NCBI GenBank assembly: GCA_950295325.1 | Contig: OX485808.1 | Span: 22,650,527-22,714,526, forward strand | Direction: 5' to 3' | DNA length: 64,000 nucleotides | Source: Polytrichum commune | Taxonomy: Eukaryota; Streptophyta; Polytrichopsida; Polytrichales; Polytrichaceae | Shown: piece by piece, positions 16,139 through 64,000 of the stretch | Layout of the letters: every line of letters begins with the position of its first letter | How positions within the stretch are numbered: position 1 is the stretch's first letter | The notes under the pieces: model-generated | Seen by the model: the letters and a program-made list of their open reading frames with translations, nothing else | The model's database searches: none | Told to the model about the DNA's origin: nothing | Made by a program: the position numbers and the translations under genes

Positions 16139-16740
16139 AGGCCGGTTCACATGGGGTCCCAAGACCCAAGTCCCAAGTCCCACTCATGTTAGCAAGTCCC
16201 AACCTGGAGGTCAAGTCCCAACCTAGAGGTCAAGTCCCAACTTATGAGCCTCAAGAAACCGTTGAAATACAATTAATTATCATTAAAACTAGATCTTCAA
16301 TATTCTATGCAAAAATAATCACAGGACTTGTGTTGAGAGTTGGGTCTAGCTTTTTGCTCGACCCAACTCGCAACACAAGTCCCAAGCCTCACCTTCAAAA
16401 AGTGTCGCCATACACGCATCCATGTCATACTTGGGACTCAAGACTTGGGACCCTGTGTGAAGTGGTAATTCCCAACTTCCATACTCTCAACGGTGGAGAT
16501 TGCATAGATTGACCTCATGTGGCTTGGGACTTGGGACTTGGGACCCTGTGTGAAGTGGTAAGTCCCAACTTCCATACTCTCAACGGTGGAGATTGCATAG
16601 ATTGACCTCATGTGACTTGGGACTTGGGACTTGGGACCCTGTGTGAAGTGGTAAGTCCCAACTTCCATGCTCTCAACGGTGGAGATTGCATAGATTGACC
16701 TCACGTGACTTGGGACTTGGGACCTCACATGCACCGGCCC
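16139..16740. mobile_element. Harbinger-like MITE carrying two tandem repeats
   Basis: Left end AGGCCGGTTCACATGGGGTC; right end, inverted, GGGCCGGTGCATGTGAGGTC. TCA flanks both sides (16136-16138 and 16741-16743). The end pattern GGnCCGGTT-CAC is close to the Harbinger element at 7743. The interior holds a 93-bp minisatellite and a shorter array of about 21 bp (16190-16245) built on aagtcccaacct. No coding capacity: the 98-codon frame on the minus strand simply translates the minisatellite. Confidence 0.7.
16447..16725. repeat. 93-bp minisatellite, three copies
   Basis: Units begin at 16447, 16540 and 16633 with gggaccctgtgtgaagtggt and include ctctcaacggtggagattgc. They are nearly identical, so the array is recent. 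It lies inside the MITE at 16139-16740. Confidence 0.92.
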
Positions 16741-20169: not shown

Positions 20170-20922
20170 TAGTATGGACTCTAGAAAATTATTGAGGACC
20201 ACACTAATAGGACTCTTTAGTGCATCTATCAATGAACGGGGAGAATCAAGCGCTACTTTACAAATGAATCAAGCGGTTGAATTCAAGAAACAACCGGTTG
20301 GTTGACGTTCAAGACTTCAAGAAAGGTGCCGATCATTTTAGAGGATCGTATGGAATATATCTCAAATTAATGAAGGAAAAAATGCAGAAAAATAGCAACA
20401 TGTCAACGCTTGGACTTAAGGAAATGCTATTATTTCGACCGACTACGTCCAAAAATCTCCCGGGACACCGGTCCCAATCTCTAGAAGCCTCCTTGGTCCA
20501 AATGATTGACACTTTTAGCACAGGCCGTGGTTCAAGACATGTTAATAATAGCATCATATATATTTACACGTTAGAATGCACCCGATTCATGGTGATGCTC
20601 CACTTGCAAAGACGGGGAAGATTCGTGAAGTTGGTGACGTAAGCGACGTGATGTAAGCAGGTGCTTGACCATGACAACTAGGGCAATAACGTGACAATAA
20701 TATCCATCGGACCTAGTCATTCATTCGTGTGGAGAGCCACACATGTTTGAAAAATGGTGGTTTCCAAAATGGAGTTTGGTAATTAACCCAGGGTAAACGG
20801 ATTCTTTGTGGACATGTGCCTAACTTCGAGGAGTTTGGTTTCAAGGTTGGTCCCAACCGTCTTTCGTTGGTTAAAACCGTCCGTTTTCCAACTCCGATCT
20901 AAACTTGGGTTACCATACTCAG

Positions 20923-21167
20923 TTTCAAAGCCGGTGTTTTTGAACATGTGTGGCCTCCCCTTCAGACCTTGTTTCAAAGCCGGTGTTTTTGAACATGTGT
21001 GGCCTCCCCTTTAGACCCTGTTTCGAAGCCGGTGTTTTTGAACATGTGTGGCCTCCCCTTCAGACCCTGTTTCAAAACCGGTGTTTTTGAACATGTGTGG
21101 CCTCCCCTTCAGACCCTGTTTCAGAGCCGGTGTTTTTGAACATGTGTGGCCTCCCCTTCAGACCATA
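20923..21167. repeat. 49-bp minisatellite, five copies
   Basis: Units start at 20923, 20972, 21021, 21070 and 21119 with tttcaaagccggtgtttttg and contain aacatgtgtggcctcccctt. They differ at only a few positions. Each unit holds a weak palindrome around CCGG. No spacers, so this is not a CRISPR array. Confidence 0.93.
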
Positions 21168-27030: not shown

Positions 27031-27584
27031 ATCCCCACCAAACCTCATCAACACTGAGATATCAGATTTACAGCTAATTTCTAGGGGTAATGTAATTCTT
27101 TATGTTCCTGAGTTCTAAAGTTGGATAGGTTTTGGAATACGCAAAGATATGAAGTGTTAGGACTTGAACATGTTCTTCCAGATACATTAAATGTATGGAT
27201 ATTAAATGGATACGAATAAAGAATCAGTGCAAGGAGACCCTAGTTCTGAATTTCACATTATTGGTTTCACAATAACTTGAGCATCCTACGACGTAGACTT
27301 TCTCAATGAATCAGGGTCAACTAATAAATTTGCACCATGTGCACAAAAATGGATCCATAAATACGCACCATTCGTATAATCAATAGAGTACTGACTTTGA
27401 AACTGGTGTGTCCATTTATCTGCAGTGCCATTAAAAGCACTATTGAAGAATATCTCAAAGTAGAGAACGACACTCACAGTCATTACTAGTGAGTGGCATC
27501 AAATGAATATGCCTCTTGCTAAGTGAAGCCACAACTCTGCCAAAATTTCAGATAACTTGGTCCAAACTGAATAAAATCTTGCCC

Positions 27585-30500
27585 CTAATCTTTCCAAGCT
27601 TGCAATCTGTGCACCAGGATCTTTGACCTATCAAGAGAACTGATTTGTGGAAAACAGCGCAAAGGGCACATGCTCTCACTCACCTCGGTCATTCTTAGCC
27701 CTGCTTTCTTGACCGTCTTCACAAATAATATAAGGCTATCAGGATTCCGGATCGCAGATGCAATATAAGCAACAGGGTATTCATGCACAATGGATTCCGA
27801 GTCATTTGTTCGAGACGGGTGTCCAAGTGAGAGGAGAGAAGCCAAGAGGCGCACAAGGTGTGGTATATATGTTGGATCATAAATCAAATCAGCTCCCAAG
27901 CTGCATGTCACATGACAGGTGCACAAATAAGCTTAATGTATAGACAGTAACCGCCCACAATGACTCAAAATAGGTTGCTAAGGAAAACATGAACTCGAAA
28001 CACAACAGCTGAGCAGCGTAGGAATCCCAAATCAACTCTAGGTTTCCTGCTAATGAGAAACTGTCATTTCAATAAGTTGCATAGAGCTTAAGAGAATGTT
28101 GGAATGGGCAGAAGTGCAATTAGAACCTCAGTTACTTCTATAAATATAAACATTAAATTGGGTTGTAGTCATGATGGTGAATAAATAATGTCCAGCATAA
28201 CTTACATAACATTTGATCCCAGAGCTTGTAGATCCCTTTCAGAAAGTGTCTCCCAGGGTAGCTGCTGGCATATTACCTGCATTCGCCAGCTTTCCCCAAT
28301 TAGAAGGGGCATGGATAAATTGCAACATGTATATTCCAGGAGTGAAGTAATGTGACCACAATATTTTCTGAACAGAAAGAACAGAAATTCATATTTTTGC
28401 TCAAGTAGAGGAACTACAGGGTATTTCTATATGGATGCATGCATTGGATATTTCAGAACAATGATCATCAGTAGAATAATGTAAATATTCAGAGCACCAA
28501 AGAGCAGGAAGGGAAGTCAAGTGAACAGCAATTCATAAACCAAACACTGTCTACACAGAAAGAACAGCAATTAATATTCAGGTACCTTTCTTGTAGACAT
28601 GCAAGCATGAAAATTTCGAGAACAATGGTCAACATCGATTTCTGTAAAGTCAAGGAAAGCAAAGAGAAAAAAGGAAAGTGAGAACATTGCATGCACCCTA
28701 AGTCCCTACCCTGGTTGAGGGGTGTAGTGACTCTTGACTGCAATCATCTTGCTCTGCCCCCTCAACCTTGACACCATTAATTAATAGGTTGTGCCTCATA
28801 TTGGCTAGGGTAGCAAGAGAACCATCTGTCAATGTCACCTACCACAAGCCAGAAGACCATTAACGTTAGGACTTTAAGGAGTGGCATATCACCTCTTCAT
28901 GAAGACCAAAGTGGAAAACACTTTCCAAGTCAACCAGCCTGTATCAAGGCAGTACTCTACTTATTGAAATCACAATATTGAAGTAGCCAATTTTATCATC
29001 AGCAAGTAAGTGCTACATTGAAAGAACTGAAATACAGATATCCACTTCATTCTCCATATACTATACCTAAGCAAAATCACAAGGCAAATTTTTAGACCTA
29101 GTCCTAATGATCACCAGATTCAATACCTTAGAGGCACCAAGGCAGGCAAGTAGTATGCCAACCATCCCTGCCCCGGCACCCACCTGTATAGAAGTGCACG
29201 TAGAAATCACCAAATAAATAGAGTAATCAGGTTTCCATTGTCTGAATTATATATTTCCAGAATGGATCACATTTGATTCCAAGAAAGAATCAAAACAAAG
29301 GATAGAGACATATTTATCCGTATTTGGGTATCTACCCGTAACATCTTTGATATGCTTTCCAAATTACAACTAACAAATTGCATACTGATAAGAGTAAACT
29401 ATAACAAACCATTAATCCAACTTGTTAACAAAGACCAGGGATCGAACAATAGAATGGAAACATCAATAACAATCCGAATAGATAAAATCAAGTAACACTA
29501 AATGGTAAAATATACCTCCAAACACTTCTGACCATGAAACAACTCTGGATGAGTTAGGATGAACTCAGAAAGGTAGAGGCCAGCAGGCCATGTGCAGCAC
29601 CTGTAATCATACCAGTGACAGAATTGAGAACCATCTGCTTCTGAAATCCCACTCCAGATTAGACCTGCTTATCAAATTCTGGGACATCAAGGCTGGAATT
29701 TATACATGGTGATCTTTTGAGGCTGCTGAATATCTTACTGCAGGTCTAGAACAAGAGACCTATCCATCAACTTAGAAAGGGCTCTGACAGAAGAAGATAT
29801 TGACAATTCCCTTGCATAATTACAGTCTAGGACACCCTAGTAATGCTGAATGTATCATAGAACACTACATCTCATTCACATACACATATAGACAAAGTAC
29901 TAAGCCTCCAATTTCTGAGGACAGCCACCACTTTCTAGTGATATTTATGCAATCGTAGCTGGCTTTAACCTTTGTACCAATGATAATCAAACTACAAGGT
30001 TTGGTATACCAAGGTTTATTTCTACGTCACATCTTTGACCACACCTATATAATTTTGAACATATAAATGTAGTGCTAGACAACTGGTGGGTACAAATGTA
30101 TCAACAATCAAACATACCCTGTGTCACCTTCAAGCATGTTAAGAGAGACTCTTAGTGTAATAAGCTCCTCAGAACCTTCTGATTCATTCATGACACCTGT
30201 CTTCAATGCCAAGTGAGCCCTTGCTTTAGCAGGCACCCTGTATGTGAAGCTTTTGTAGCACTTGGGTGCAATTTCAGAGGCCTCCTGTTCAAGATAATGA
30301 TGCGATGTTAAGTGACACACCTCCAAATAAATGCAACGATATTAAAAAAACACTGCAAACTAGTGAAGAATGAAGCAATACTAGAAACTTGGCATACCAC
30401 ATAAAGCTCCTTCAAAGAGCATAGAGAAGACCTGGCTAACTTAATCACAAAAAATGAGGGAAATGGTGACTTTGAGTGAAGTAATCTATGACGTCACCTG

Positions 30501-31870
30501 TGAAGGAAGCAAGTAGATAGCATGAAGTTCATACAAGCTATCCAAAACCTCCTCACCATCACTTTCTGCCGCCAGTATGAATTGCTTCAATAACCGCCTC
30601 AGGTACATCCAAGCTGGTGGATAACTCTTGCAGGTCTTCGCATCCACTACAAAAGATGGGTGAGTCTCAGTAAATAGCCCACCAGAATCCAACCCAACCT
30701 GGGATACCTTGTCATGTTTGGGGCTTAGATTATGTGAAGTATCCCTATACAGAAGAGAATAAGACATATCAAATTCATCACTTGTGTGCACTTGTAGTTG
30801 TTTTTTGTACATAGATGGGATATATGCTACAAGAATTATGAAACAAGTGACAATTTTAGCTCTATCATCCTGATGTGGTATTCTGAAGGGACTCACACCC
30901 CACCCCCTTGTTACTGCCTATGTTTTAATACAGCAACCGCATGGCATTCCAACCAAGGATGCTGGGAGAAAAATAATCCAGGATCTAGGACACGCAGAAC
31001 GAAATATGGTTTTTCACAATTTCTTATGAAATTCAAGTTGGGCACACCAGAGATACAAGTGAACCATAAATAAAAGAGAAAGCTATGTGTACCTCATCAT
31101 TGAGACATTTCTCAAGAAAGAAGGTTTGGGCATCCATAGAAAGGACACCACCTCCCAACTTTCTGCAACAAACGAGATTGAAAATCAATCAACATGGCCA
31201 CCTTTACAATATATAATAAGTGTATACTTGCAGAGATTATCCTCCAAATGAAGACAGAAAAGATGAATTTTTGGCCACCAATGTCCAACACAATCCAGCA
31301 GATATAAATCTTTGACTGGAACAATTATGTCGGTAATGATTAAGTCAGCAACTCAGTTAGCCTCAAGAGCTCTTACAGCATTTTGCCAATTCCAAATTTC
31401 CCAAATAAATGTCACGTGAATAATGAAGTCACTCAAGAACTACACACGTCACAGTAATTTCATACTCTACCTTCAAAGATATCCAGAATTTGAGTTACTT
31501 TCATAAGAAATCTCTCTTACCCTGCACTTCCCGGGGTACTTTGCCACAACAAAGGACCCCAATGTGGCTAACACAATCACATGGTCAGACAAGGAAACAG
31601 AAATAGCATAAAATATTGGACTCAACCCAATAAGCAATTGGGTAGAAGTCTCATCTGAGGGTTCTTAAATGATAATCTCCGGGCAGTAGAAATCCTTAAA
31701 ATCAAAACACAGGATAGCTATGAAAGAACTCTGAGACAAACCCAGAATACCAACTCTCTTGTGCACAGCAAAGTTGATGGAATTTTTCACCTGGCAAGAG
31801 AAACAACATCCGAAGATGGCTCCATGGCCCGAAATGCAGCCACCAACGCCCTGCCATCCTCAACCTCCAT
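27585..31870 (-). CDS. EEF2KMT: Protein-lysine methyltransferase EEF2KMT (FAM86 family), intact copy
   Basis: Nine exons on the minus strand, all with GT..AG joints and a continuous frame: 31870-31791, 31162-31093, 30665-30498, 30284-30118, 29600-29516, 29183-29127, 28838-28710, 28276-28206, 27900-27585; predicted 380 residues, close to plant relatives. It starts MEVEDGRALVAAFRAMEPSS; the N-terminal FAM86 helix region includes WMYLRRLLKQFILAAE and EVLDSLYELHAIY. The methyltransferase fold follows: NMLEGDTG, then CCTWPAGLYLSEFIL, motif I VGAGAGMVGILL (191-202), LTDGSLATLANM, and ILGADLIYDP with a late YIASAIRNPDS strand. Family members trimethylate a lysine of elongation factor 2 with S-adenosylmethionine in the cytosol. 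Two telo-box motifs lie 130-150 bp upstream. A related pseudogene lies at 57645-61426. Exon 3 start was chosen at the ACTGAG acceptor because it keeps phase. Confidence 0.88.
30895..31010 (-). other. Protein-like block inside EEF2KMT intron 2
   Basis: Between exons 2 and 3 one frame reads VLDPGLFFSQHPWLECHAVA and then shifts to a stop. The matching place in the pseudogene copy (60385-60510) stays open and reads ILDPELFCSEHPWLDYHALA. No splice phase joins it cleanly to exon 2, so I leave it out of the coding sequence. It may be a lost or alternative exon. Confidence 0.35.
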
Positions 31871-32000
31871 CTCCTCTACTCACAGATACTATTTCTTTGC
31901 CAATAATCTCATACAAGAATGGGTCTAAGTATGATTGATGCTTTCAATGTTGCTACCATCTGCTCCGCAATTGCGACAAGCATGGTTGGAGGCCAGGACT

Positions 32001-32022
32001 AGGGTTTAAGGCTTAGGGTTTA
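32001..32022 (-). promoter_or_regulatory. Telo-box motifs upstream of EEF2KMT
   Basis: Two AAACCCTA-type motifs on the minus strand (32001-32007 and 32014-32021), 130-150 bp before the start codon. Such boxes are common in plant promoters of translation and ribosome genes. Activity here is inferred. Confidence 0.5.
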
Positions 32023-32030
32023 AACTCCCT

Positions 32031-44036: not shown

Positions 44037-47000
44037 TCATGTAAAAAGAGACGGGTGAAGCACTGCTGGAAGTCTCGCCGGCATCCTCGGCAACTCCCGT
44101 GGTGGAGTATACATGGCCCGGGGCGGCGTGTAGGACATGTGGTCCAAGAAAGACTCAACAAATGCCCCATCATCACTATTGAAGCTCCCGACCTCAAATC
44201 CTCTCGTGGTGATGATCTCAGTCCCTCCTTGCCTTTCTCTGTAATCCTCCCTGTCAAGATCGTCCTCATCATCATTAAAGGCTTGATCTAACCCTCCCAT
44301 CAACGAGGTTGCGAACGCCATATCTTGAAGAGAGTCATCCTCCCAAGAGGAGCTTGGTTCTGAGAATGTTGCGTTAACAAAGTCCTCATCTTCTTCTGAT
44401 AAATCCTCCTGCATTTCTGGAGGCTCAACCATCGACCACTGGATGAAATATGGACGGATAAACCTATCTGACTGGCGTAGAAGATAAGGATCGAAGGGGA
44501 AGAACATGTCAAGTCTACCCTCGCCTCCAAATGATCCCGATATTTGGGACCCAGCCATCTCCCTTGAATCCTCCCAAGCCCTACAGTCCACAAGTTGTGC
44601 TATGCTAGCCTGCTTCACAAACTCCTCAACCACAGAAGGCAAGCAAACATTCAATGGCTTGAGATGATGCTCAACAAGTTCTTGCAAAGGTAGGTTTCTT
44701 AGTACACGTTTCAGCTTATGATCCTCTGTTAGTTCCCGCAATCTAAAACAGAGGACGTACATCACTGCTTGGCAAGCAGAGTAGAAAACCCCATGTACAA
44801 GTGGGTCCGCAGTGGACATGGATGGGTTCCTCCGGTCGTCTGCTAGTTGAGCATAAGAGACGCACCATTCTAGCAGTCTCCTTACAGACTCCAGAACAAC
44901 AGAGAGAGGAAGGTAATTTGCCCTTGCAAGATAACTTGCTAGATAGGCGGCTGCGGACATCCTCGTCTGAGCAGGCCGAGACTTCGAGACAAATATGTCA
45001 CAGAGAAGACTGGCGAAGGTGTTCCCGCAGGTTGCAGGAGACAAGGAGCACATGTAGAAGAGCAGAAATTGAGTGAACTTGGACTTGTAAGTGTCCAAAA
45101 TAGTTGTCTGGAATGATCTAATGAGTGCTTCAAACACTTGGTTTCCGTGTCCATTGTTCACGCACATCTGTAAGTGCTCCAGAGTCATGTCCATCATGAC
45201 ATCCATCTTGTCAGCTATCTCATCCAGTGTAGGAAGGGGCCCATTCCGGACTTGTCGGGAGGCAATTGCACCATGTTGTTGCTTGGCTTCACAGCCAGGA
45301 CCAGTGGCATCAGCTGCACTCAAACCCTCCTCGGCATCCTTCACTCCCGCTTCGTCATCATCATCCAGATTCATATGGAACATAAACACCTTACTGCTGT
45401 CCTCTTCCCTCACAATATCCTCCCACCTTATCTCTACATCAATCTCAACAAGACGATCCACTATAAGTGAAAGCATCTGCCCACCCAGAGCACCGCCCAA
45501 TGAACTGCTCTCCAATCTCAACAGATTCTCAACATACAACGCCAACCACTGCTTCTCAATTGTCCTATGTGGCATTCTCTGAACGACAATATGTTGTAGC
45601 CGAAATGCAGCTGTGGGCACAAGCTCCAAAATTTGTACCAGTGACAAATGGAGCCGTTCCAATACCTGCACATGCAAAATAGGACCATCGGGTTACTTAC
45701 TCAATGATCACAATACGACTTAAGAGTTGGCCTAAACATTCACATCTTCCAATCACCCATCCCAGTCTAAATCTGCGAATCCATCGAAACCAAAAATGTA
45801 AGAAACGTAAGCCATATACAGCAATTGGAACCAGGCCTCGTTGTGGAGATAATTTGTGAATACTTAACTGACATACTAAAAACTTCCCATCTGCATAGCA
45901 ACTATCGCTGCAAGATACGGCGCACAAAAACGAAAGATGACCCTTTCACAACTATAATACTGAAGTCTCGAATCCATCAGCGTCTCAACAATGGGAAAAA
46001 CCAAATTCAGTGCCTAATGTTAGGGGTTGACATTAGAGTAATATCTTTAAGTCTCTGCAATCTAGCGCAAGCTGAAATTCCAGCAAGGAATGGACATCCA
46101 GAGCTTAAAAGAAAAGAGTGATTACCACTAGATAATCCAGTGTTACAAACATCCACGCACGTGTAGGCACCAAACAAATATAGAATCATGAGACACCCAC
46201 GCTAGGCCATCCCAAATATCTAAGTCCACAACATAAAGGCGTTTCCTCTTTAGAGTACATTCTATTGACTACACAGACTTCACCAACGAAGAACCTGCTG
46301 ATTCCAGCCACCAGAATCTTGGAACCATTTTCTACGAAATTAAATCATATTAAGTGGACTTTGCTGAATCATAATGAATCTAGGGGTTGCAGACGAAATC
46401 CTTCGCTGCTAACCTCTCGTTGAGGATAGAGAACCGGAAGTGCCACAACTAATCAGATTTCCGACAATCCTAAACCCAGAACCATAAACCTGGAAAAATA
46501 CCATGGCACATGGAAGGTACACGGTAGACGTTACTGTCACTGCGGGAGAGCTCCATGAACCTCAACCCAAAGTGAAAGGAGACAAGCTTTCCAGGCCCCA
46601 TTATCTTTAAATCATATCCTCCGCTTTATACCATATTATATTGAGTGAACTGAATCTCAACGAATCTAACAGTTGTAAAAGGTTCGCTTTGCTCCTTATC
46701 TTCTGTTCGAGTAGAAATATCAGGAGCGCTCAAACCATTCAAGTTACCAAAAACCATTAACTTGGTAGACAAGCGGTCATATGGTAGGAAGTGATAAGAC
46801 AATGGATTGAACTTATCAAAATCTCGGCAAGATGTTCAGCCGCTTGCATGCACAGCTTCTCCGTGGTCCTCCGAAATAATATTAGAAGACATCCAGCTAA
46901 GTATAAATGGACCTAAGAGCTTTAGAAGGCAACTTACGCTGCACACGTCATGTTCAAGATAGAAAGCTCAGGAAGGCTCAAACCATTGCAAACCAATCCA

Positions 47001-47628
47001 CCGACAATACCAAACCCAAACCTATAACCTTGAAAAATATCGTCACACGATATCCAAGTTTCAAAATGTAGCTGTAAGGCACAGAGACTCTCAGAAGGAA
47101 AAAGGTTCAGAGACTTACGCTATCCTTCTTGGCAAGATGTTCACCCGCTTGCATGCGGAGCTTCTCCACGGTCATAAACCCCATCATCAGGCCCGTCCTG
47201 CTAAACGAGTCCAGGAAATTAGGCAGCCCGCATGATGGCGGCAAGAAATTCCGAACCATCATATCCAAGCACTCAGGAACAAAGCTGCCATTTGCAGTCG
47301 ACAAATTCACAACGATAGCCAGAAGCGCCTCCACCACCTCTACACTGTAACCCCACACGCTCATTCCCAGCAAGTAGCTTAACAAACCCTGGTGCGCTCT
47401 CTCGTCCATGTAAGACACCGTCTGCGATAACGCCATAAGACGAATCGAAAGAGCAGGGGCGCTAGCAGGATCATTCAGCCTAGGGTCCCGCAGGTCATTC
47501 AATAGCTTGTTGTAATGCCCCCTGTCTCCACCGCTCGTTACCGACGTGAGCGCTTTTATCACCCACGACCTCGCCACCGCTATCAAATCCTCGTCCGTCA
47601 CCTCCTCGTCTCCAAGTGCGAGACCCAT
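44037..47628 (-). CDS. RRN3: RNA polymerase I-specific transcription initiation factor RRN3 (TIF-IA)
   Basis: Two exons on the minus strand: 47628-47119 (170 codons, donor GTAAGT) and 45665-44037 (acceptor GTGCAG), giving 712 residues, somewhat longer than typical plant RRN3. RRN3 binds polymerase I and brings it to the rDNA promoter in the nucleolus; its activity follows growth signals. Matches: MDERAHQGLLSYLLGMSVWG in exon 1; YVENLLRLESSSLGG and RLVEIDVEIRWEDIV at the start of exon 2; the hallmark KFTQFLLFYMCSLSP near 366-380 followed by TRMSAAAYLASYLARANYLP; and FFPFDPYLLRQSDRFIRPYF near 558-578. An acidic stretch (DLSEEDEDF) and a disordered tail follow. Exon 2 has an acidic insertion (DDDDEAG) that is also seen, in different lengths, in relatives. 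The 1.45-kb intron holds no further exon that I can see. No lesion found. Confidence 0.95.
45666..47118 (-). other. RRN3 intron
   Basis: A 1453-bp intron. It contains a related short repeat of the exon-1 end (gatgttcagccgcttgcatg at about 46831, compare 47138), probably a local duplication. No transposon ends seen. Confidence 0.5.
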
Positions 47629-47700
47629 GGTAATAATCTACCACCTACAACGAACAAGTTTACGAGAACGTTAATCGCACATGCCTACTTTGCACCATCA

Positions 47701-47838: not shown

Positions 47839-47860
47839 GGGGCAGACAGCAGCCGCCTCT

Positions 47861-48322
47861 CCTCGGCACTAGGCGCTCCTCGTTTTCGAGGATGTGCCTG
47901 CTGCCCGACAGCACCCCTGCCCGCCCAGGTCAGTTAACAAAAACTCTGCCACCCGAAAATCGCTGCCCAGCTCACCAAACCCTGCCCGAAAATATCCGCC
48001 CTGATAACATATGAAAATTAATGAAACATCAAAGCCTAATGGACGGTGAATACTTTGTGGTGTTCATTCTTTGCCACACTACCGGTTCTTCCCAATCATA
48101 GGTGTGTGGCAAAGAATGAACACCACAAAGTGTTCACCGTCCATTAGGCTTTGATGTTTCATTAATTTTCATATGTTATTAGGGCGGATATTTTCGGGCA
48201 GGGTTTGGTGAGCTAGGCAGCGATTTTCGGGTGGCAGAGTTTTTGTTAACTGACCTGGGCGGGCATGGGTGTTGTCGGGCAGCATGCACATCCTCGAAAA
48301 TGAGGAGCGCCTAGTGCCGAGG
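47861..48322. repeat. Near-perfect long inverted repeat, 219-bp arms
   Basis: Arms 47861-48079 and 48104-48322 are inverted copies with about seven differences (roughly 97 percent identity), separated by a 24-bp loop (taccggttcttcccaatcat...). It lies about 230 bp upstream of the RRN3 start. Arms contain gcccgccc and ccacccgaaaatcgctgcc motifs, related to GC-rich text just outside (48361-48420). No protein is encoded. A transcript would fold into a very long hairpin. No clean target duplication found. Confidence 0.9.
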
Positions 48323-51059
48323 CGGGGCGGGGGGGCTGGGCAGATGTGATCTAGCCCTTGCCCTCAAAATGGGGCCTCCGCCTCTGCCCCGTACCTGCCC
48401 GCCTGCCCTGCCTCGTGGAGAGCACTGGAGCAGAGTTTCCAAGTCCAACCGGGGACACGTTAACATCTTCCGGGATTTCTTTATTAATTTGAGATTTTTT
48501 TTAAACTTGAAAAAATGATAGGTAACTTTCTTAAAGTCTTGAATTTCAACCGGTTATTTCTCAAACTCAATCAAATCATTTTTAAACCATATGTTGCTCA
48601 CATTCACCTCACCTTCAAGGTCCAAAAGCCAATATATATGTCCACTTTCACTTTCACTTTCACTTAGTAAATAAGTATTTTATTGGAATTCTATTTCCAT
48701 AATGCATTGTTCATTAGACTCTTAACCCTTGATTGGTCAAGGACTTTCTTGAATTATTAGTTTGATGAAGAACCATTACTTCTTGTTTTAATTTCTTTAC
48801 TCTTTGCTATAAGCAAGGTTATTACCACATTATTGATGATTCAATTTGCATGATTTGTTGTGTTTCATTGGAATTATGAGGGTTTAGGGTCTAACATTTA
48901 TAACCTATAGCCCATCCTTATAGCCCATGTGATAGGAAATTTTGAGATGAATATAGATATACCGAGCATATTATTCCAAGAAGTTTGTTTAGGGTGGATA
49001 AATACTTTATTTCTCAATAAAAATTACAACAACAACAACAACAACATGATGTAACTCCAAATTATAACCCAACACTAATAGGACTATTTGGTATAACTTC
49101 AAGAGTAAATGGCTTCAATGTAATATTTACTAAAATAGAATACATTAAATTAACATTAAAACCAATTCTATAACCGTATGCCTAGGATAATAACTCGTTA
49201 AATCTATGTGAATGAGGAGATTTGTGGATTTACAACAAACTGTCTCAAAGTGATGGACACATATTTATAATCTACTTATAATTACATAAATTTCAACCAG
49301 TAGAGATGTGTCATATTCAACTCTTGGTTTTTTGGTTTCTTAGAAAAACCAACTCAAAATCGCAACTTACATTTGGAAAGTTCATGAACACATACTCCCC
49401 ACGACAAGGGTTAAGGAGAGCAACTATATCATCAGCAAACTAGCAAAGCTTTTGGTCACATGTTCCTTGATATTACCAAGCGGTTGGTAGTCGCAAGAAT
49501 GCTATGTCCTAGTACCATCTTGCACGTGTGGTCAACTCTAGCTAGGTGTCCAATCAAGGCTGGATGTTGGCTTGTTTTAAAGATAACTTTGCATCAACAG
49601 TCACATGCAACTTGACTTCACACTTGAAGAGTGAGATACTAGCACCATATTTGACAAGTTTGGATCGGCTACCAAACTTTGCCCCGTTTCAAATACCACC
49701 CCTAGGTCTCTTCTCACATGACAATGCCAATAAAAATAGATTAGAACCAAGCATTGGTCACAGTTAACTCTCTCCCTTACAAGAATTGGAAAATGTGCCA
49801 TGATCGACGTTTTTCTTTGTTTGCAATTTTCAATTTCTTACCCCACCCTTGAAGGTGGCCCCTTCATTGAACTCGTGAAATGTATTATGAGGACCAAAAG
49901 GAAACTTCAAAGTCCATTCGTTGAAATGAAACAAAGTCAACACCTCGACACCCTTTATGAGGCCTTATTCATTTTCGGTGCCCGTACTTGTACATTATTG
50001 GGATTTGTTGTGGTCTTGGTACTTCTAGATTGTGTAGAATAGTCATACGCACTATGGAACACACGAATCAAAGTGTTGCTTTCTCCTCATCGATTTGCAT
50101 ATCATCCAATCAAATTTCATACTAAAAACGCCAACATAAGTGGTAGAAAAACATAAAATGGTGAATGACCACTACCAGTGCACTAGACTAGGAGAAGAAA
50201 AGTTCTTGTGTGGACCCAAAACGGCTAATTCTAACATAACAACAACAAGCATCCATGATAGTAGGACCTCACCTTGTGATTCCACCAATCAAACACAAGC
50301 ATGTCTAAGTTTTCAACCTCTTGTTTTGTTAATGCCATGCATGCATTTCACTACTGTGCATAGCCACACGTGTCACAAACACTTGAGTTGTCCATAGACC
50401 TTTACTTCCCAAGCAACCCATGTTGGGTTGATGGATGGTTTCTTCCCTACATATTAGCCCCATCTAACTTGTTTATCCACAGCAAATAAATAAATTAATA
50501 ACTATAATTATCAAGCCAACCTATATATCTACCCATAGATACGCGAGCCATGCAATTTCGGGATGATTGAAATGCAATAAAAAAATGTCAAAGTGGGAAG
50601 TGGTCATGTTTTTGTTGTGTTGGGATCTCATGTGAGGGTGTTGACTCCGATCAATGGTCACTACTCCAATGCAAACACCAACAACACCAATGAACACCGA
50701 TGACATAATATTGAATACGAGAATATTCTATGGAATAATGTCAATCCCACAAAACACTATTATGGATTTGAATAATGTTATGGGTGTTTATTTTGGTTAA
50801 AAATAATTATTTGATGGTCATGTAAAAATGGCCTTTGTGCTCACATCGATTGTTTAGTTAACATTCGAGAACTCTCTAATTTTTGAGGAATTCTTTGCAT
50901 TCAAATGGTTAGAAATATGCGACAATTTACACACTTCAAATGCAAGGTGGCTAGGTTTTTGTGGTTTGCACATTTTATGTTGAGAATGTGTGGAGGTGAT
51001 CAATTTTTGAGTTGTTCCCTTCTAGAGTATCACACAATGTAATGTAATATAACTAGAAT
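48323..51059. other. Intergenic; one dispersed repeat, no gene seen
   Basis: About 48430-48610 is one of three related blocks (others 38990-39150 and 56470-56780) marked by caaccgg-tatttctcaaactc and tttctttattaatttgag. A lone ggagttac-family half-site lies near 49066-49110 (gtaactccaaattataaccc). No gene supported. Confidence 0.4.
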
Positions 51060-51878
51060 TGTTAAGGAATATTCTAACTACATGTGCCAATGTGTAAGCA
51101 GAGCAAGATGAGAGCTAGACAACTCTCAGTTGAAGATGAATGGATAGGAGTAAGACAACTCCAGATTGACAACATGTGCACTGGAGTTAGACAGCTCCGC
51201 ATTTAGTGCATTGGAACTAGACCATTCCAATTGAGAACATGTGCACGTGAGTTAGACAACTCTCGATGAGGTGCACAGGAGTTAGACCACTCCATATTTG
51301 GAAAGATGAATGTTATTCATTGGAGTTAGACAACTCTCAATGAATAGATAAAGCTAGTTGGAATTAGACAGTTCCAACTAGAAGATTGAATGAATGAATT
51401 AGTTGGAATTAGATAGTTCCAACTGGTATAAATGATGGATGTATTTAGTTGGAATTAGACAGTTCCAACTAGAAAAAAGAATGGATGAATCCAATTGGAA
51501 TTAGACAGTTCCAATTGGAAGAATGGAATTGAGATAAGAGATGAAAGAAGGTTCTAGAAGAACCAAAGATAGAAGATTCATAGTAGAATTAGAAGATAGA
51601 GCTATGAATAGAATACTTTTACTATATGTAAAGATAGAAAGTAAAAGTAGTGCCTTTGGCATAAGAGGAAGCTCGGGGGAGGAGAGAGGGGGTTTTTTTT
51701 TTGGATTGTTAGCTCTCTCTCCTATGGTCGGGTGGTAGAGCTTCTTTGACCAAAACTTATTTGGTCTCGGATTGTACTTAGAGATTTGTACAAAGAAATA
51801 AATTGTGTTTAGTTCAATTCTTTACTTTGAGATATTGTTGTCGTGAAACAATTACCAACCGGTGAGAGGTTCGTAACA
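51060..51878 (+). repeat. LTR-like repeat, copy 1, with hairpin chain
   Basis: It begins TGTTAAGGAAT and ends GGTTCGTAACA, so the ends are TGTTA...TAACA as in LTRs. An AATAAA lies at about 51799. It is a diverged direct copy of 55339-56003. The first 460 bp hold the hairpin chain; the rest (gctcgggggaggagagag, cctatggtcgggtggt, ccggtgagaggtt) is shared. No primer-binding site or flanking target duplication was found, so a solo or relic LTR is the cautious reading. Confidence 0.6.
51110..51518 (+). repeat. Array of eleven small hairpins with shared TAGAC loop
   Basis: Inverted units with TAGAC-type loops occur at 51110-51127, 51147-51162, 51183-51198, 51211-51230, 51249-51264, 51278-51293, 51316-51346, 51354-51380, 51401-51424, 51446-51471 and 51491-51518. 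Stems vary (GAGAG, GGAGT, TTGGAA, ATTCATTGGAGTT, CTAGTTGGAA, CCAATTGGAA) yet each pairs with its own partner. Linkers vary in length. Three more hairpins without this loop follow (ggttctagaagaacc at 51550; attcatag/ctatgaat; cttttact/agtaaaag). Confidence 0.85.
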
Positions 51879-55338: not shown

Positions 55339-56003
55339 TGATGGAGGATGGAATATTCTAACCACATGTGCCAATGTGTAAGCAGAGGATGATGGGAGCT
55401 AGACAACTCCTAGTTGAAGATGGATGGATTGGAGTTAGACAACTCCAAATTGACAACATGTGCACTGGGGTTAGACAGCTCCGCATATAGTGCATTGGAA
55501 TTAGACCATTCCATATTGAGAACATGTGCACATGAGTTAAACAACTCTCGATGAGGTGCACTGGAGTTGGACCACTCCAAAATTGGAAAGATGAATGGTA
55601 TTCATTGGAGTTAGACAACTCTTAATGAATAGATAGATCTAGTTGGAATTAGACAATTCCAACTAGAAGAATGGATGAATCCAATTGGAATTAGACAGTT
55701 CCAATTGGAAGAATGAGATTGCGATAAGAGATGGAAGAAAGTTCTAGAAGAACCAAAGAAAGAAGATTCATAGTAGAACTAAAAGATAGAGCTATGAATA
55801 TGATACTTTTACTATATGTAAAGATAGAAAGTAAAAGTAGTGCTTCGGCATAAGAAGAAGCTCGGGGGAGGAGAGAGCACCTTTTGTCTCTCTCCTATGG
55901 TCGGGTGGTTGAGCTTAAACCAAGACCTACTTGGTCTATGATTGTTTTGATTGATACGTGTTAGTGTGGAAGTTGGTGATAAACCGGTGAGAGGTTTGTT
56001 ACA
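55339..56003 (+). repeat. LTR-like repeat, copy 2, with hairpin chain
   Basis: Begins TGATGGAGGATGG and ends GGTTTGTTACA. It aligns with copy 1 throughout but lacks two of the central hairpins and about 100 bp near the 3' side. Nine TAGAC-type hairpins lie at 55393-55710. Several stem differences from copy 1 keep the pairing. Confidence 0.6.
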
Positions 56004-56780: not shown

Positions 56781-57644
56781 TTCTCCCCAGTTCTTGCCCA
56801 CACTTACTAGCGGCAGTGAATGGAGTTCGCCCGTTCACTGCTGCCCACCACCAGTATGTGTGGGCGGCCTATAAGTCACTGGATACAAACACACTTACAC
56901 CCATCCAAGGCTAGGGATATGTGGTGTCTATGTGCATAAACTCATCCATTGGGAAGGTGAAAATGTAGCTTGAAAAATGATAGAAGTCATTGACTCCAGA
57001 AGTAGCATCAAGAACCCAGATAAGTCAAGTGGGATTCAATTGGAATGAATTGGCCCTCAACCTGGAGGGACTTGTTTTTTCCTAGAACCCCTTCATCCAT
57101 GATGAATGAGTCTACATAAAAACATCACACCACAAACCCACAGCCTCATTCAACCTCGAAACACTGAGATATCAGGTTTACAGCCAATTCCTCACATTGC
57201 TGAATTTCAAAGTGATTGTTTACATTACCGAGTTCTGAAAGATAACTATACATCCACCCTGTTGCTCCATGAACATCAAATTGAGACTCAGTGCAAAGAG
57301 ACCCTCAATTCCGAAGTCCAAGTTCTTCATTTTTTGCAATAACTGGAGGATCATGGAGCCTCTCAAGGAGTCAGGGTTATTGAATAAGGAATCCATAAAT
57401 ATCTTCCATCCGTATAATCAACAGAATGTTGACTTAGAAACTGATGTGCCCATTTACCTGCAGTGCAATTACTAACCTATTTTAAAGAATGGTGTAGAAG
57501 AACTGAACATTACTCAGTCATTGCTAATGAGTGGAGTTGAGTGATTATGCCTCTCTTGCTAAGTGTAAAGCCACAACTCTGCCACAATTTCACATAACTT
57601 GGTCAAAACTTGTTAAAATCTTGCCCCTAATCTTTCCAAGCTCG

Positions 57645-60600
57645 CAATCTGTGCAGCGGGATCTTTGACATATCAAGAGAACTGATTTGTGGGAAACACA
57701 ATTTAAGGGTGCATGCTCTCACTCACTTCAATCATTCTTAACCCCGTTTACTTTACCATCTCCACAAGAAATATAAAGCTCTCAGGATTCCGAATAGCAG
57801 AAGCAATATAAGCAACAGAATATTCATGTAAACCCAATTCTGAGTTGGGTGTCCAAGTGACAGGAGCAAAGCCAAGAGGCATACAAGGTGAGGTATAAAT
57901 GTTGGATCATATATCAGATCAGCTCCCAAGCTGTAGGTCACATGACAGGTACAAAGAATTACTTCACTGCATAGACACTGGAGATAGTCTGCCAAGAAAA
58001 ATGTGAACTCAAACCAAAACTCTGTGCAGAGTACAAATCTGAACTCATAATTAGATTTCCTGTAAATGAGAAACTCTGTTATTATACTAAGTCACACAAG
58101 TGCTAAAAATAGTGTTGGATCTGCAACTGGGCTCTCAGCACTTCTACATTCAAATGGGGTCTGTAGTCAACAAGTTAAAGAAAAGACATCCAGAGTAGCT
58201 TTCATGACATTTGAATCCAGAGTTTGTGGATCCCTTTCAGAAAGTGTTCCCCAAGGTAGTTGCTGGCATATCAGCAGCATTTGCCAGCCTCCTCCAATTA
58301 GAAGGAAAAAGGATAAATAGCAAACATGTTTACAATAGTATATTCCACCAGGAATGTAATTAAAAAACTGTCTTTACAGAACAATAGCAATTCATATTCA
58401 GCTCCCTTTCTTGTAGAACTGCAGGGTATTGCTACATGCAAGGATAAGAGTTATAAGGACAATGGCCTACATCAAATTATGTAAGTCCAGAAAAGCAAAG
58501 ATCAAGAAGAAAAGTTAGGAGATTGCATGCACCCTAAGTCCCTACCCTAGTTGAGGTGTGGAGTGGCTCTTGACTGCAATCATCTTGCTCTGCCCCCTTG
58601 ACCTTCACCCCATTGATTGATAGGCTGTGCGCCTCATATTGGCTAATATGGCAAGGGAACCATCTGACAATTTCACCTACCACATGCGAGAAGAAACACT
58701 ATTAGATCTTCAAATAGTGGCACATCACCTCTTCATGTACAGCAAATTCATAGCACTTTCCAAGTCAACCTGTCTTCAGGAAGTACTCTATAGATTAGAA
58801 CCACAACTTTTCATTCCCCCAAATTTACCATCAGCAAGTAAGTACTACATTAAAATAATGAATATAGGTAAATTAGTCGGTATAGTCCATAAACTATACC
58901 TTGAGACCAATTTCTGCACATACCCTTCAAATCAAAACTGCAGAGCACTACCCAAAACATTGCAACTCACGTTGTACTACCTCACCAGTTATAATAATGC
59001 ATTGGTTGTATAATATACTTTGGCTGTATACATGACCTTTCAGAGCAAGTCCTAGTTATCACCAGATTTAATATCTTGGGAGCCACCAAGGCAGGCAAGT
59101 TTAATGCCAACCATTCCGGCCCCAGCACCCACCTGTATACATATTGAAGTAGAAAGCAGTTTCACTCTCTGGATTATAAAGTTTCTACATAGAAAAAAAA
59201 TCGACATCAAGGCTGGAAACTATATATCAAGATCTTTTTGAGGCTACTCAAGATCTTACTGCACGTCTAGAACAAGAGACCTTATCCATCAACTTAAGAG
59301 CGCTCTGACAGAAGAAGGTATGGACAATTCCCTTGCATTTTCACAGTCTAGCACACCCTAGCAATGCTGGATGTATCATAGAACACTACATCTGATTCCC
59401 ATACAGAAATGGACAGAGTACTAAGCCTTCCTTTTCTGAAGATAGCCACTACTTTCTACTGATATTTTGACAACCCTAACTGGCTTGAACCCTCATACCA
59501 TAGACAATTATCCAACTACAAGGTTCAGAATTCCATGCTTCTTTGTAGAATATATGACCACAAGTATAGAAGTTTTAACAAATAAAGTGTAGTGCAAAAT
59601 AATTGGTAGGGGAAAATATTCATACACGGGTGATCAAACATATCCTGTGTCACCTTCAAGCATATTGAGAGCTCACCAGAATCTTCTGATTCTTTCATGG
59701 CGCGTGTCTTCAACGCTAGATGAGCCCTTGCTTTGGCAGGCATCCTGTATGAGAAGCTTTTGTAGCTCCTAAGTGGAATTTCAGGGCCCTCCTGTTGAAG
59801 ACAGTGACGTGATGTTAAGTTTGAAACCTCCAAATAAATGTGAACATGAAAAACACAGAAACTATCCAAGACTCGAAACTTGGCACTTGACATGAAACAC
59901 ATACTCACTAATGGTAACACACAGAAGAGGAAATTAGTGCCAATCTTTGCATTAATTAAAAGTGACAAAACCTACGAGGTCACCTGTAAAGGAAGCAAGT
60001 AGATAGTATGAGGTTCATGCAAGTTATCCAGAACCTCCTCACCGTCATATTCTGCGGCCAGTATGAATTGCTTTAATAACCGCCTCAGATACAGCCAACC
60101 TGGTGAATATCTCTTGAAGGTCTTTGCATCCACTACAAAATATGGGCGAGTCTCAGTAGATTTCTCACCAGAAACCAACCCAACCTAGCACACCTTGTCA
60201 AATGTGGGATGTACATTATTTGGAGTTTTCTTGTACAACCACTAAAGGAGAGAAAGAGATATCAAATTCATCACTTGTGCACACTTGTAGCATGTATATC
60301 ATACATGGATAGACAAAATACTCCAAGAATATGAAATCACTGAATTCTAGCTCTATCATCATGGTGTGCTACTCTGAAGGAACTCACACCCACCCTTGTT
60401 GCCCGCATAATTTCTAAAACTGCAAGCGCATGATAATCCAGCCAAGGGTGCTCGGAACAAAACAATTCAGGATCCAGAATATACAGAAATGCTGTATGGC
60501 TTCCCCACATTTTTCTTGTGAAATTCGAGTTGTGCACATACAAACCGCCATTTTCTAAAAAAATAAGTAAATCATCAACAAATGGGAAAGCTATGTGTAC

Positions 60601-61426
60601 CTCATCATTGAGAAACTTCTCCGGAAAGAAGGTCTGGGCATCGATCACAGAAAGGACACCACCTCCCAACTTCCTGCAACAAACGAGATTGAAATTCAGT
60701 TAACACGTTCACCATTGCAATATATAGCATGTGGAGACTACCAGACATTGTTATCCAGATGAAGATAGCAAAGATGGATTTTGGCCACAATTGCTGAATT
60801 AATTATTTCACTTATATATATATATATAAGTGAAATAATTAATTCAGCAATTTGTGACAGCCTCCAATTTGTGACATCCTCTCTCTTCCAGCATACTCCA
60901 AAACCACATTCCGCAAAAGTAATATGACAGAAATAATGAGATCACTCAAGAACTGCACACATTGCCCAGGTTGCATGAGCTCAAAATTACTAGACAGCAC
61001 CACAATGATTGCATACTCTACCCTCAAAAACACATACACACTTTGAGTTACTAAGACTAGAAATCCTTTCCACTCTGCACCTCCCGGGATACTTTGCCAC
61101 ACAAAAGGATCCCACTGTGACTGAAACAATCGCATGATCAGATGAGGAACCAGGAACACCATAGAATGTTGGACTCAACCCAGCAAGCCATTGGGTAGAT
61201 GTCTGAATCAGGGTTCTTAAATGATGACATCGGGGCAGTGAAAATCCTTAAAACTAGAACACAGGAAAGCTGTGCGAAAACTGTGAGACAAACCCAGAAT
61301 GCAAATTCTCATGTACACAACAGCAAAGTTGATGCATATTTTTTACCTGGCAAAAGTATCAACATCCGAAGATGACTCCATGGTCCGAAAGGCAGCCACC
61401 AACGCCCCGCCATCCTTCACCTCCAT
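57645..61426 (-). pseudogene. Decayed second copy of EEF2KMT
   Basis: The copy matches 27585-31870 in order and orientation, including introns and 3' flank. Exon 1 (61426-61347), exon 2 and exon 3 (to about 59981) are still open. Then it breaks: the exon carrying NMLEGDTG has lost about 19 bp (frame shift near 59668), the exon with CCTWPAGLYLSEF is absent together with about 400 bp (near 59165-59190), the motif I exon (59094-59134) has lost its GT donor, the next exon has an insertion in NMRHN, and the last exon has lost about 20 bp and is shifted. It cannot make a methyltransferase. A short N-terminal product (to about 60000) remains possible. Its upstream flank keeps a telo-box near 61541. 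Confidence 0.88.
60789..60852. repeat. 64-bp perfect palindrome
   Basis: The sequence from 60789 to 60852 equals its own reverse complement, with (TA)n at the centre and ttgctgaattaattatttca arms. It lies in the first intron of the EEF2KMT pseudogene and is absent from the intact copy. Confidence 0.95.
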
Positions 61427-64000
61427 CTCCTCTGCCCACAGAATATTGGCAAACAAATGCTTTCAATGTCGATGATTTCAATGTTGCTACCATCTGCCCC
61501 GCAATTGCAACAACAATAGTTCGAGACCGGGTTTTACAGTTTAGGGTTTAATCTCCCTGGTTACTTGGCTGGTTGGGAGGTATCATCAAAGCATCGCATC
61601 CTTAAGTACAGTTATAATGACAAACATTGCTTTCGGTCTTCTCATGATGAATAATATAGATGTGAGAACTGTGAGAACTCGTCACACTCACAAATCTCAT
61701 CGTTTTCATGGTAAACTTTGTATGATTACATGAGTTTACATATATGCAACCATAACTGCAACAAATAATGGTTGAAGGTCATGAGTAGGGTTTAGGGTTT
61801 AGGGTCCATGATACGTCATCTGGTTAAGAGGCACCATCAAAGGATCACGTCCATACGGTTAATTCGACAAACGTTGCTTTCAGTCTCCTCATGATGAACA
61901 TAGAATTGAAAACTTTTGAGAACTTATCATAATCACCAATCTCAAGCTTTTGATGGTAACTTTGCTTTCAATATGAGTCTCTATAGAATATGGATTTGGG
62001 GAAAGTTGCAATAGAATATTGGTCATATGGAACTTAAACACTTGACAAATTTAACCCTTGGGGTTTCGCATAAGTACATAGTTAGACCGTTCACGATGAA
62101 CACCTTTGTTGGATAGCTATTAACCAATAATACACGGGTAATCGAGTCTAGCATTCGGAATGGAAAGAGGTTTTTGTTGAATGTTACATTACGGTTTTGT
62201 TTTGAAATATGATCATTGTGTAAGGCGAAGGTGAGGGGGCCAACAAGCCAATGAAGTCGAGTGTCTTTGGAGGAACAAGGGAGCGGATTTAAGGTAGACG
62301 TGCCTAAATCCAACATAGCATTGGACACCTACATTTGAGTGGTACGTGGTCAGGTGTGTGGGCCTAAGAACATACATCCAAAAATACGTACGTTTAGGAC
62401 TAAGTGCTCACAATGTGATAACCATTACATGCTCAAGTGTTAACATGATTGGGGGGACCTACCTGACCACTTAATGAGCATGATAAACTTCACTTTGATA
62501 GCGAATTAGATATTCATATGAGTAGTATTCTATTGCAACTTATCTAAATGGTTGTGAACACAATCTAAATATGCTAATCATCTCGCACTAACTGCATAGT
62601 TCCTATCCTACAAGAAGTGGATGCAAAGAGGAAAAAACATCCAAATAACATGTGTCTACCCTTATGAATAGTTAGGGTACACAAATCATCAAATACGGAG
62701 CGGGGGAAGAGGATAACGTAGCATAGTAATCGAGGAAGCAAGGCATGTAAAATTGATGGTGGGTACAATGGATGGACTCGATATTTGGGACAAACTAATT
62801 TGGGAGCTCGGAGAACAAGTTTGTCGCATGGTTTGTGTGTGTGTGTGTGTGTGTGTGTTGGGGGAGGGTGTGATGGTATATTCGAATGGGGTGGTGGGGA
62901 TTGGAAAGAGGTTAGGAGGAGAGAAAGGTCAACCATAGTGGTGGGTGGACATGATGGTTAGTGAGTTTGGATTACAATGTTTAGCCAACCAAACAAACAA
63001 AGTGCATAGCTTGGGGTGTGGAGGTTAGGGTAGGGGTTTTCGTGCATGTCCGCACCGTTTTGTAACTTCAATGCAAAACGGGAACACCAAATAGCGAAGG
63101 ATAATATAATTGGATGCAAACTCTCTCAAAGAGGGACGAAACTGTGGGTTTTATCCTCCTCGGAGAAAATGTTCTCTTAAGAGTCTTTTAGCTTGTCGTC
63201 GTGTTTCGGAGCCGACTTTGAAATCTGGGTGGAATTTGTGGGGTTTCTTCTTTCTGTCTCTCAAACTTGGAGAAAATCTCGGGGTTTAAAATAGGATATG
63301 CACGTCAGACCATGTGTCTTAAATCCCGGATCAGTCCATCCATCGTGGTAGAACAAGCTAGAGAACCGGTTCTTAATAGCCCGACACTACATGAAATATT
63401 GTATATATTGTCACTTCGTTATTTGGAATTACAAGACTTTATATTAGTTACTGTTAATATTTTAAAACCAAATAAATAGGTCAAAGTTCTATAACGTCGA
63501 AACAACCGATTTGACCTTTGTTGACAAAAATTGAGATATACGACAAATAACTTCAGCATTAAGAAAACTTGGAGTGATTTTATATTGATTCTCATATTTC
63601 AAGATTTGAGACTAAATCCGTGGTTCCATTTGCTTTACTTTACGGTTAACTCTAATATCTTGGATGTGGGGCAAAGGATAGGGAGAGAACAAACTAGGCA
63701 ATTAAGGGGAGATGAATTGTTTGATTGTGAGATACCATCTACGAGGGAGTTTAGGAGACGCATGAAGAGGGGGGGGGGGGGTATACTTTTGGTGCTTGCA
63801 AATGAAGATTGAATCATACTTGTGTGATTTGAAGGAGACATGATGTAAAACCAATGACAGGTATAGCATAACATGCTTAATGGATCGATTAAATACCGAA
63901 CTTTAATGGAACGGTTTTTTAGAAGAACAAAAAAAAAGATGTTTCAAAAGTTGGTTTCACCGTACATTAGCATGACTCAAAAGTTCACGTTGTCCGAAGG
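61427..64000. other. Upstream of the pseudogene and right edge; no gene seen
   Basis: A local duplication relates about 61590-61720 to 61850-61960 (gacaaac-ttgctttc, ctcatgatgaa, aatctca). A TTTAGGG triplet occurs at 61786-61804. (GT)n lies at 62834-62858. A G10 run lies near 63771. The frame at 63531-63812 (93 codons) has no recognisable domain. A half-site of the GGAGTTAC family lies near 63415. Confidence 0.4.

Follow-up and report, generated by a model that had tools for sequence, protein, structure and literature searches.

The LTRs of Tnt1-type plant Ty1/copia elements (Pseudoviridae) are the closest described setting for the repeats that we report here. In the portion of PMC3601003 that we draw on, LTR ends generally carry the consensus TGTTRNR and YNYAACA, which is longer in Pseudoviridae; the U3 of plant copia is mostly depleted of C, tandem repeats in U3 are mentioned with Tnt1 among the examples, and the AATAAA motif is described as poorly kept in plant copia. 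Our locus is like these LTRs in its end motifs, its C-poor U3 and its repeats 5′ of a TATA box, and unlike Ty1/copia U3 tandem repeats in that each repeat at our locus is a hairpin whose arms covary around a loop that hardly changes. What appears to be new is a U3 tandem-repeat array built of covarying hairpins; literature searches found no U3 array of such layout, a weak negative from narrow searches of open-licence papers only.

For function, the nearest analogy is the roXbox stem-loops of the Drosophila roX lncRNAs, where a single RNA likewise carries several stem-loops that share a short conserved motif, and rescue improves as the stem-loop number rises (PMC4719309, in the part used here). 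They are unrelated in sequence, host and gene, and we compare only how the two would work, the function of our array being itself presumed. For origin, hairpins produced by template switching share perfect stems, compensatory changes and short loops with the array; the part of PMC8794818 used here treats them in RNA genes such as rRNA, whereas ours is an LTR array. Palindromes and stem-loops also take part in the formation of satellites from transposable elements, according to the excerpt of PMC10794571 that we cite.

The window, a 64-kb stretch of Polytrichum commune DNA, holds two copies of the array (Table 1). The initial annotation spoke of a chain of hairpins, perhaps belonging to a retroelement. 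The retroelement setting is supported by LTR-like anatomy (ends and U3 layout), and the chain is more aptly called a section of an LTR's U3: the array looks like it sits in the U3 part of an apparent copia-type LTR, with the copia label taken from the ends and layout. Copy 1 ends in TGTTAAG...CGTAACA, which fit the published consensus TGTTRNR...YNYAACA, while copy 2, a diverged sibling of copy 1, has one mismatch to the consensus at each end if its start is placed at 55339. On the plus strand U3 has 12.7% C against 22.9% G. The array is followed on its 3′ side by a TATA-like box, an R-like segment with further hairpins and, in copy 1 only, AATAAA; a putative U3/R boundary lies just 3′ of the TATA-like region. 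The short palindrome between array and TATA resembles a heat-shock element. Between copy 1 and copy 2 the innermost pair of the R-region hairpin changes from A-T to G-C and the outermost from G-C to A.C. Just 3′ of the TATA region, positions 51651-51661 of copy 1 read TGCCTTTGGCA and positions 55841-55850 of copy 2 read TGCTTCGGCA, the latter a UUCG-tetraloop-like hairpin.

Table 1. Positions of the LTR copies, the hairpin arrays and neighbouring features in the window
Feature	Position	Strand	Remarks
Copy 1, putative copia-type LTR, solo or truncated	51060..51878	+	819 bp; assigned from ends and layout
AGAC-loop hairpin array, eleven units	51104..51519	+	Within U3, copy 1; covariance model, folding
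Loop starts, copy 1	51117, 51153, 51189, 51219, 51254, 51284, 51328, 51366, 51411, 51457, 51503		
Units 8-11, four long hairpins	51353..51519	+	12-13 pairs, -13.0 to -15.6 kcal/mol
Short palindrome GGTTCTAGAAGAACC between array and TATA	51550..51564	+	Outer G-C is A.C in copy 2
TATA-like TATAT (51623) inside 10-bp inverted repeat	51614..51649	+	Identical in copy 2, 55804-55839
R-region hairpin GACCAAA/TTTGGTC	51748..51766	+	ACCAAG/CTTGGT in copy 2
AATAAA, poly(A)-signal-like word	51797..51802	+	Copy 1 only, not seen in copy 2
Copy 2, related LTR	55339..56003	+	Start uncertain (55339 or 55349); U5 diverged
Copy-2 array, nine hairpins	55388..55709	+	Counterparts of copy-1 units 1-8 and 11

The local match between the copies runs from 51066 to 51775, starting 6 bases inside the TG of copy 1, and alignment and reading show the final about 20 LTR bases matching again past the diverged U5. 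Because the copies differ strongly in U5, they are probably insertions of two related subfamilies and not both LTRs of one element. Ty1/copia insertion produces a 5-bp target-site duplication. For copy 1 no common 4-6-base word was found within 14 bases of 51060/51878, for copy 2 there were offset 4-base words only, and reading by eye found no primer-site-like sequence 3′ of either LTR. Ten of the 50 listed flank frames were scanned and contained no retroelement domain, with one sub-threshold DUF4232 match (E 0.029). Copy 1 seems to be a defunct terminal remnant of a plant retrotransposon.

By its domain content the window looks like plant DNA. In a search of 10 of the 17 listed frames of at least 130 codons, two on the minus strand (44040-45692 and 47110-47637) match RRN3, the N-terminal domain of a 2OG-dioxygenase and a DDE_Tnp_4/Plant_tran transposase were also identified, and frame 21819-22883 matches RNase_H. 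Segments 27345-32030 and 57383-61558 are 73-81% alike in four pieces, and one frame of the former matches FAM86 (E 1.3e-05), which suggests a duplicated gene. The 478 bp at 47853-48330 are 93.5% identical to their own reverse complement, a near-perfect foldback, and 60789-60852 is a 64-bp perfect palindrome. Tandem arrays lie at 16429-16723 (93-bp unit, 3.2 copies) and 20922-21164 (49-bp unit, 5.0 copies).

The units share the core pattern GGARTTAGACARYTCC. At up to 3 mismatches it has 23 matches in the window, 20 of them array units and 3 elsewhere, where shuffles lead one to expect 3.3; the eleven hairpins first reported, and their second copy, are thereby borne out as 11 and 9 units. All 20 can be aligned gap-free in 30 columns. 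The covariance model made from this alignment, when run on the 64-kb window, recovered all 20 on the plus strand together with minus-strand echoes of five of them; besides these it gave two weak matches only (E 0.26 and 0.45). The loop had been called a constant TAGAC. It is exact in 16/20 units (9/11 in copy 1, 7/9 in copy 2), and AGAC is exact in 17/20 (10/11 and 7/9); of the units folded alone, 13/20 have a four-base loop, and in the other 7/20 the open loop is 6 or 8 bases long. The loop is asymmetric, largely conserved and inverted in 0/20 units, while the arms vary. Units 1-6 are weak, with about 5-8 pairs each, unit 7 has 5+8 pairs around a one-base bulge, and the linkers between hairpins are A/G-rich. 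The imperfect stem cells comprise 16 G.T, 5 A.C and 14 others, against 155 Watson-Crick cells, and many are shared by descent.

These features could in principle mark a DNA enhancer array, each unit being a double-stranded transcription-factor site whose pairing reflects dyad symmetry. The core GANNTAGACNNTC is indeed well conserved by sequence across units, and the array lies 5′ of a TATA-like box, as repeats do in other U3 regions. A dyad site, however, predicts constant arms around a free centre, whereas the units have a near-constant asymmetric centre and covarying arms, and wobble pairs and the bulged unit 7 are ill-suited to dyad symmetry. The combination of centre and arms is the trace expected of a ligand for a hairpin-binding protein; a DNA dyad site would more likely leave the opposite one. 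We consider an enhancer array rather unlikely, bearing in mind that it would also account for two features of folding, namely that both strands fold well and that single units have no strand preference.

Compared with 60 dinucleotide shuffles each, the copy-1 array folds with z of -9.4 on the plus and -8.3 on the minus strand and the copy-2 array with -6.8 and -6.6; in two control stretches z was -0.9 and 0.0 for the plus strand and -3.4 and -0.9 for the minus strand. Bases in stems number 304/821 in copy 1 and 244/659 in copy 2, against 196-226 of 821-860 in control stretches. Hairpins with stems of at least 6 show no clear excess: copy 1 has 17 and copy 2, which is shorter, has 14, versus 14-15 in four control stretches. 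The earlier claim of paired stems is confirmed, though the stems differ in strength. Units 1-6 are the weak ones, and when each 30-mer is taken by itself, units 3-6 of either copy and unit 1 of copy 2 are unconvincing (mononucleotide-shuffle P 0.037 to 0.32). When each array is folded without constraint, the minimum-energy structure contains the local hairpins of 5/11 units of copy 1 and 7/9 of copy 2 (12/20), the others being missing because repeats pair with each other. If only short-range pairs are allowed, local hairpins are for the most part favoured, with copy-1 units 2 and 3 reaching only about 0.19 and 0.32. Ten of the 20 isolated units are stabler on plus and eight on minus, with two ties, and therefore no strand is favoured overall; in copy-1 units 8-11 the plus strand is stabler than the minus by 2.1-4.2 kcal/mol.

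Covariation across units was measured on 13 stem pairs, and on the inner 8 of them. In column shuffles of the 19 distinct rows among the 20, double-changed cells for 13 pairs number 26 versus 12.6 and the covariation score is 0.306 versus 0.201, with 0/500 shuffles as high for either; the best slid register scores 0.232 against 0.306 in the true register. For 8 pairs both measures are again above all 500 shuffles. Neither the count of pairs with double changes nor that of pair types stood out: for 13 pairs, 83 and 233 of 500 shuffles were as high, and for 8 pairs, 258 and 282 of 500. Column shuffles ignore relatedness, and we therefore simulated each column on the tree of all 20 units, keeping its observed change count and composition; the tree is rough, derived from 30 columns of the same data it tests. 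The inner 8 pairs have a covariation score of 0.328 versus 0.172 +/- 0.044 in this null and a double-change measure of 0.113 versus 0.022 +/- 0.015, each with 0/1000 simulations as high, and both measures for all 13 pairs are also at 0/1000. The percentage paired is 87.5 versus 79.0 for 8 pairs (P 0.038) and 73.5 versus 65.2 for 13 pairs (P 0.041). For the inner 6 and the outer 5 pairs taken separately, the paired percentage is within the null (P 0.32 and 0.22) and the covariation scores are unusual (P 0.015 and 0.018). Covariation of the stems across units in excess of shared ancestry is thus supported. Neutral decay of one duplicated hairpin, with covariation not beyond ancestry, would suit the paired fractions of the inner 6 and outer 5 pairs; it is disfavoured by covariation and double changes above all 1000 simulations for the inner 8 and all 13 pairs, and we think it very improbable.

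The same excess could have a mutational origin, in which template switching during replication makes or repairs stems and tandem duplication spreads them, with no structural selection. According to the part of PMC8794818 used here, one such event can yield perfect stems and explain multibase compensatory changes; this agrees with the long, nearly perfect stems of units 8-11 and with the adjacent double changes that distinguish unit 8 from unit 11. We also count in its favour the enrichment of four-base loops among hairpins with instantaneous compensatory changes, 56.0% versus 42.1% in the same partial source. Unit 9, however, has T.G where units 8 and 10 have T-A and unit 11 has C-G, which is a stepwise path, and several wobbles persist unrepaired. 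Inversion of the loop in 0/20 units also argues against template switching, yet switching on the same strand would keep the loop as well (PMC8794818, again in the part used). As with the enhancer array, we would bet against this origin as the whole explanation.

Comparison of the copies is limited to n=2, and units 9 and 10, having no copy-2 counterpart, were left out. Choosing pairs from both copies favours pairing, and pairs chosen from one copy at a time were therefore used for kept-pair counts: of 82 copy-1 pairs, copy 2 retains 80 (P 0.005 if substitutions may fall anywhere, 0.05 if they are placed within stems), and of 81 copy-2 pairs, copy 1 retains 76 (P 0.066 and 0.007). There are 23 changes in 323 sites overall, with stem changes at 9/164 sites when copy-1 pairs are used and 12/162 with copy-2 pairs. 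Two paired changes named in the initial annotation are real: copy 1 has A-T at pair 51111/51126 where copy 2 has G-C, and T.G at pair 51364/51371 where copy 2 has T-A. A further listed pair, 51353/51477, is an alignment artefact at a deletion edge. Double changes between copies amount to one pair versus 0.16-0.20 expected (P 0.16-0.18). Wobble-type changes show no significant bias (5 G.T versus 2 A.C, P 0.23), and a hand count of independent states over all units, with helix lengths also set by hand, gives 8 G.T versus 3 A.C (P 0.11). With pairs chosen from both copies, 13/170 stem sites and 10/154 other sites diverge. Such near-equal divergence would be expected if both copies decayed after insertion; it also counts in favour of template switching and of neutral decay. 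The initial interpretation is partly supported, by the covariation across units and the retroelement setting; the single between-copy double change, the wobble bias and the strand comparison do not establish selection on structure in RNA or single-stranded DNA.

Other identities for the array were considered. A hammerhead core within the LTR marks retrozymes; of 7 loose core matches in the window, 0 lie in 51060-51878 or 55339-56003. Rfam (4227 families, gathering score) gave 0 matches in the whole window. The copy-2 spacings of 36, 36, 30, 36 and 30 are all divisible by three and units of that copy lie across a 46-codon frame, but a coding array was rejected because copy 1 has a spacing of 35. 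A bacterial terminator scan gave 2 minus-strand terminator-like hits versus 0.2 expected and was not used. Searches with the core pattern found 5 single-site matches without arrays in viral contigs and a two-site match in an IMG/VR contig that on reading was taken for a phage gene, all treated as chance, and no match in a plasmid collection. In genome contigs, a set that contains no plants, there was one match, treated as coincidence: a Flavobacteriaceae MAG (L007:4297-4478) with a 67/33-bp tandem repeat that has the exact 16-mer GGAGTTAGACAACTCC three times, probably fortuitously. The unit model scores sites in 7/7 such non-plant loci, four at E 7e-5 to 0.0015, these loci having been preselected by the core pattern.

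The reading that we place first is that the U3 tandem-repeat array acted as hairpins in the sense transcript and formed a multivalent protein ligand, to which we give a probability of about 0.36. The array may have grown through duplication of a hairpin unit of roughly 16-20 bp (GGARTTAGACARYTCC) and the adjoining linker. With the LTR parts in this order, the array would precede the start site in DNA and come close to the 3′ end of the genomic RNA, where, if transcribed, it would present a row of hairpins around AGAC loops joined by A/G-rich linkers. Such a row could be a multivalent ligand for a protein that binds single strands or hairpins, either the element's Gag or a host RNA-binding protein, and selection for pairing, possibly aided by template switching, would have preserved the stems as their sequence drifted. 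We count in favour of RNA hairpins as ligands the strong array folds, the tree-aware covariation excess, pair retention, the largely conserved asymmetric loop, the make-up of the imperfect stem cells, the plus-strand stability of units 8-11, the C-poor U3 and the fit of the LTR ends to the consensus; against them stand a paired fraction within the null for the inner 6 and outer 5 pairs, folding of the minus strand too, the wobble count of 5 versus 2, units without strand preference, stems that diverge as other sites do, ordinary counts of double-changed pairs, and local hairpins in only 12/20 units of the free fold. We rate an RNA ligand only slightly above an enhancer and template switching, which we rate alike. 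The data hint that a folded RNA or single strand once mattered, and an artefact of DNA copying could leave the same trace.

Arrays of MS2 hairpins are a laboratory chain of hairpin ligands. A natural chain of this kind in U3, giving several Gag or host-protein contacts per genomic RNA for packaging or localisation, is a more tentative idea still, and we hold it to be doubtful; it would exist as DNA in every LTR of the element. If the array did work as RNA, a plant LTR retrotransposon would gain a repeated, testable RNA-protein contact site; the main-text part of a 2025 review on host factors in the plant LTR-retrotransposon life cycle that we cite contains neither "stem-loop" nor "hairpin" (PMC12786077). 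If template switching is the true source, the array would be a clean natural case of covariation misleading about function. With many units per copy, the two mechanisms, RNA selection and template switching, would be separable.
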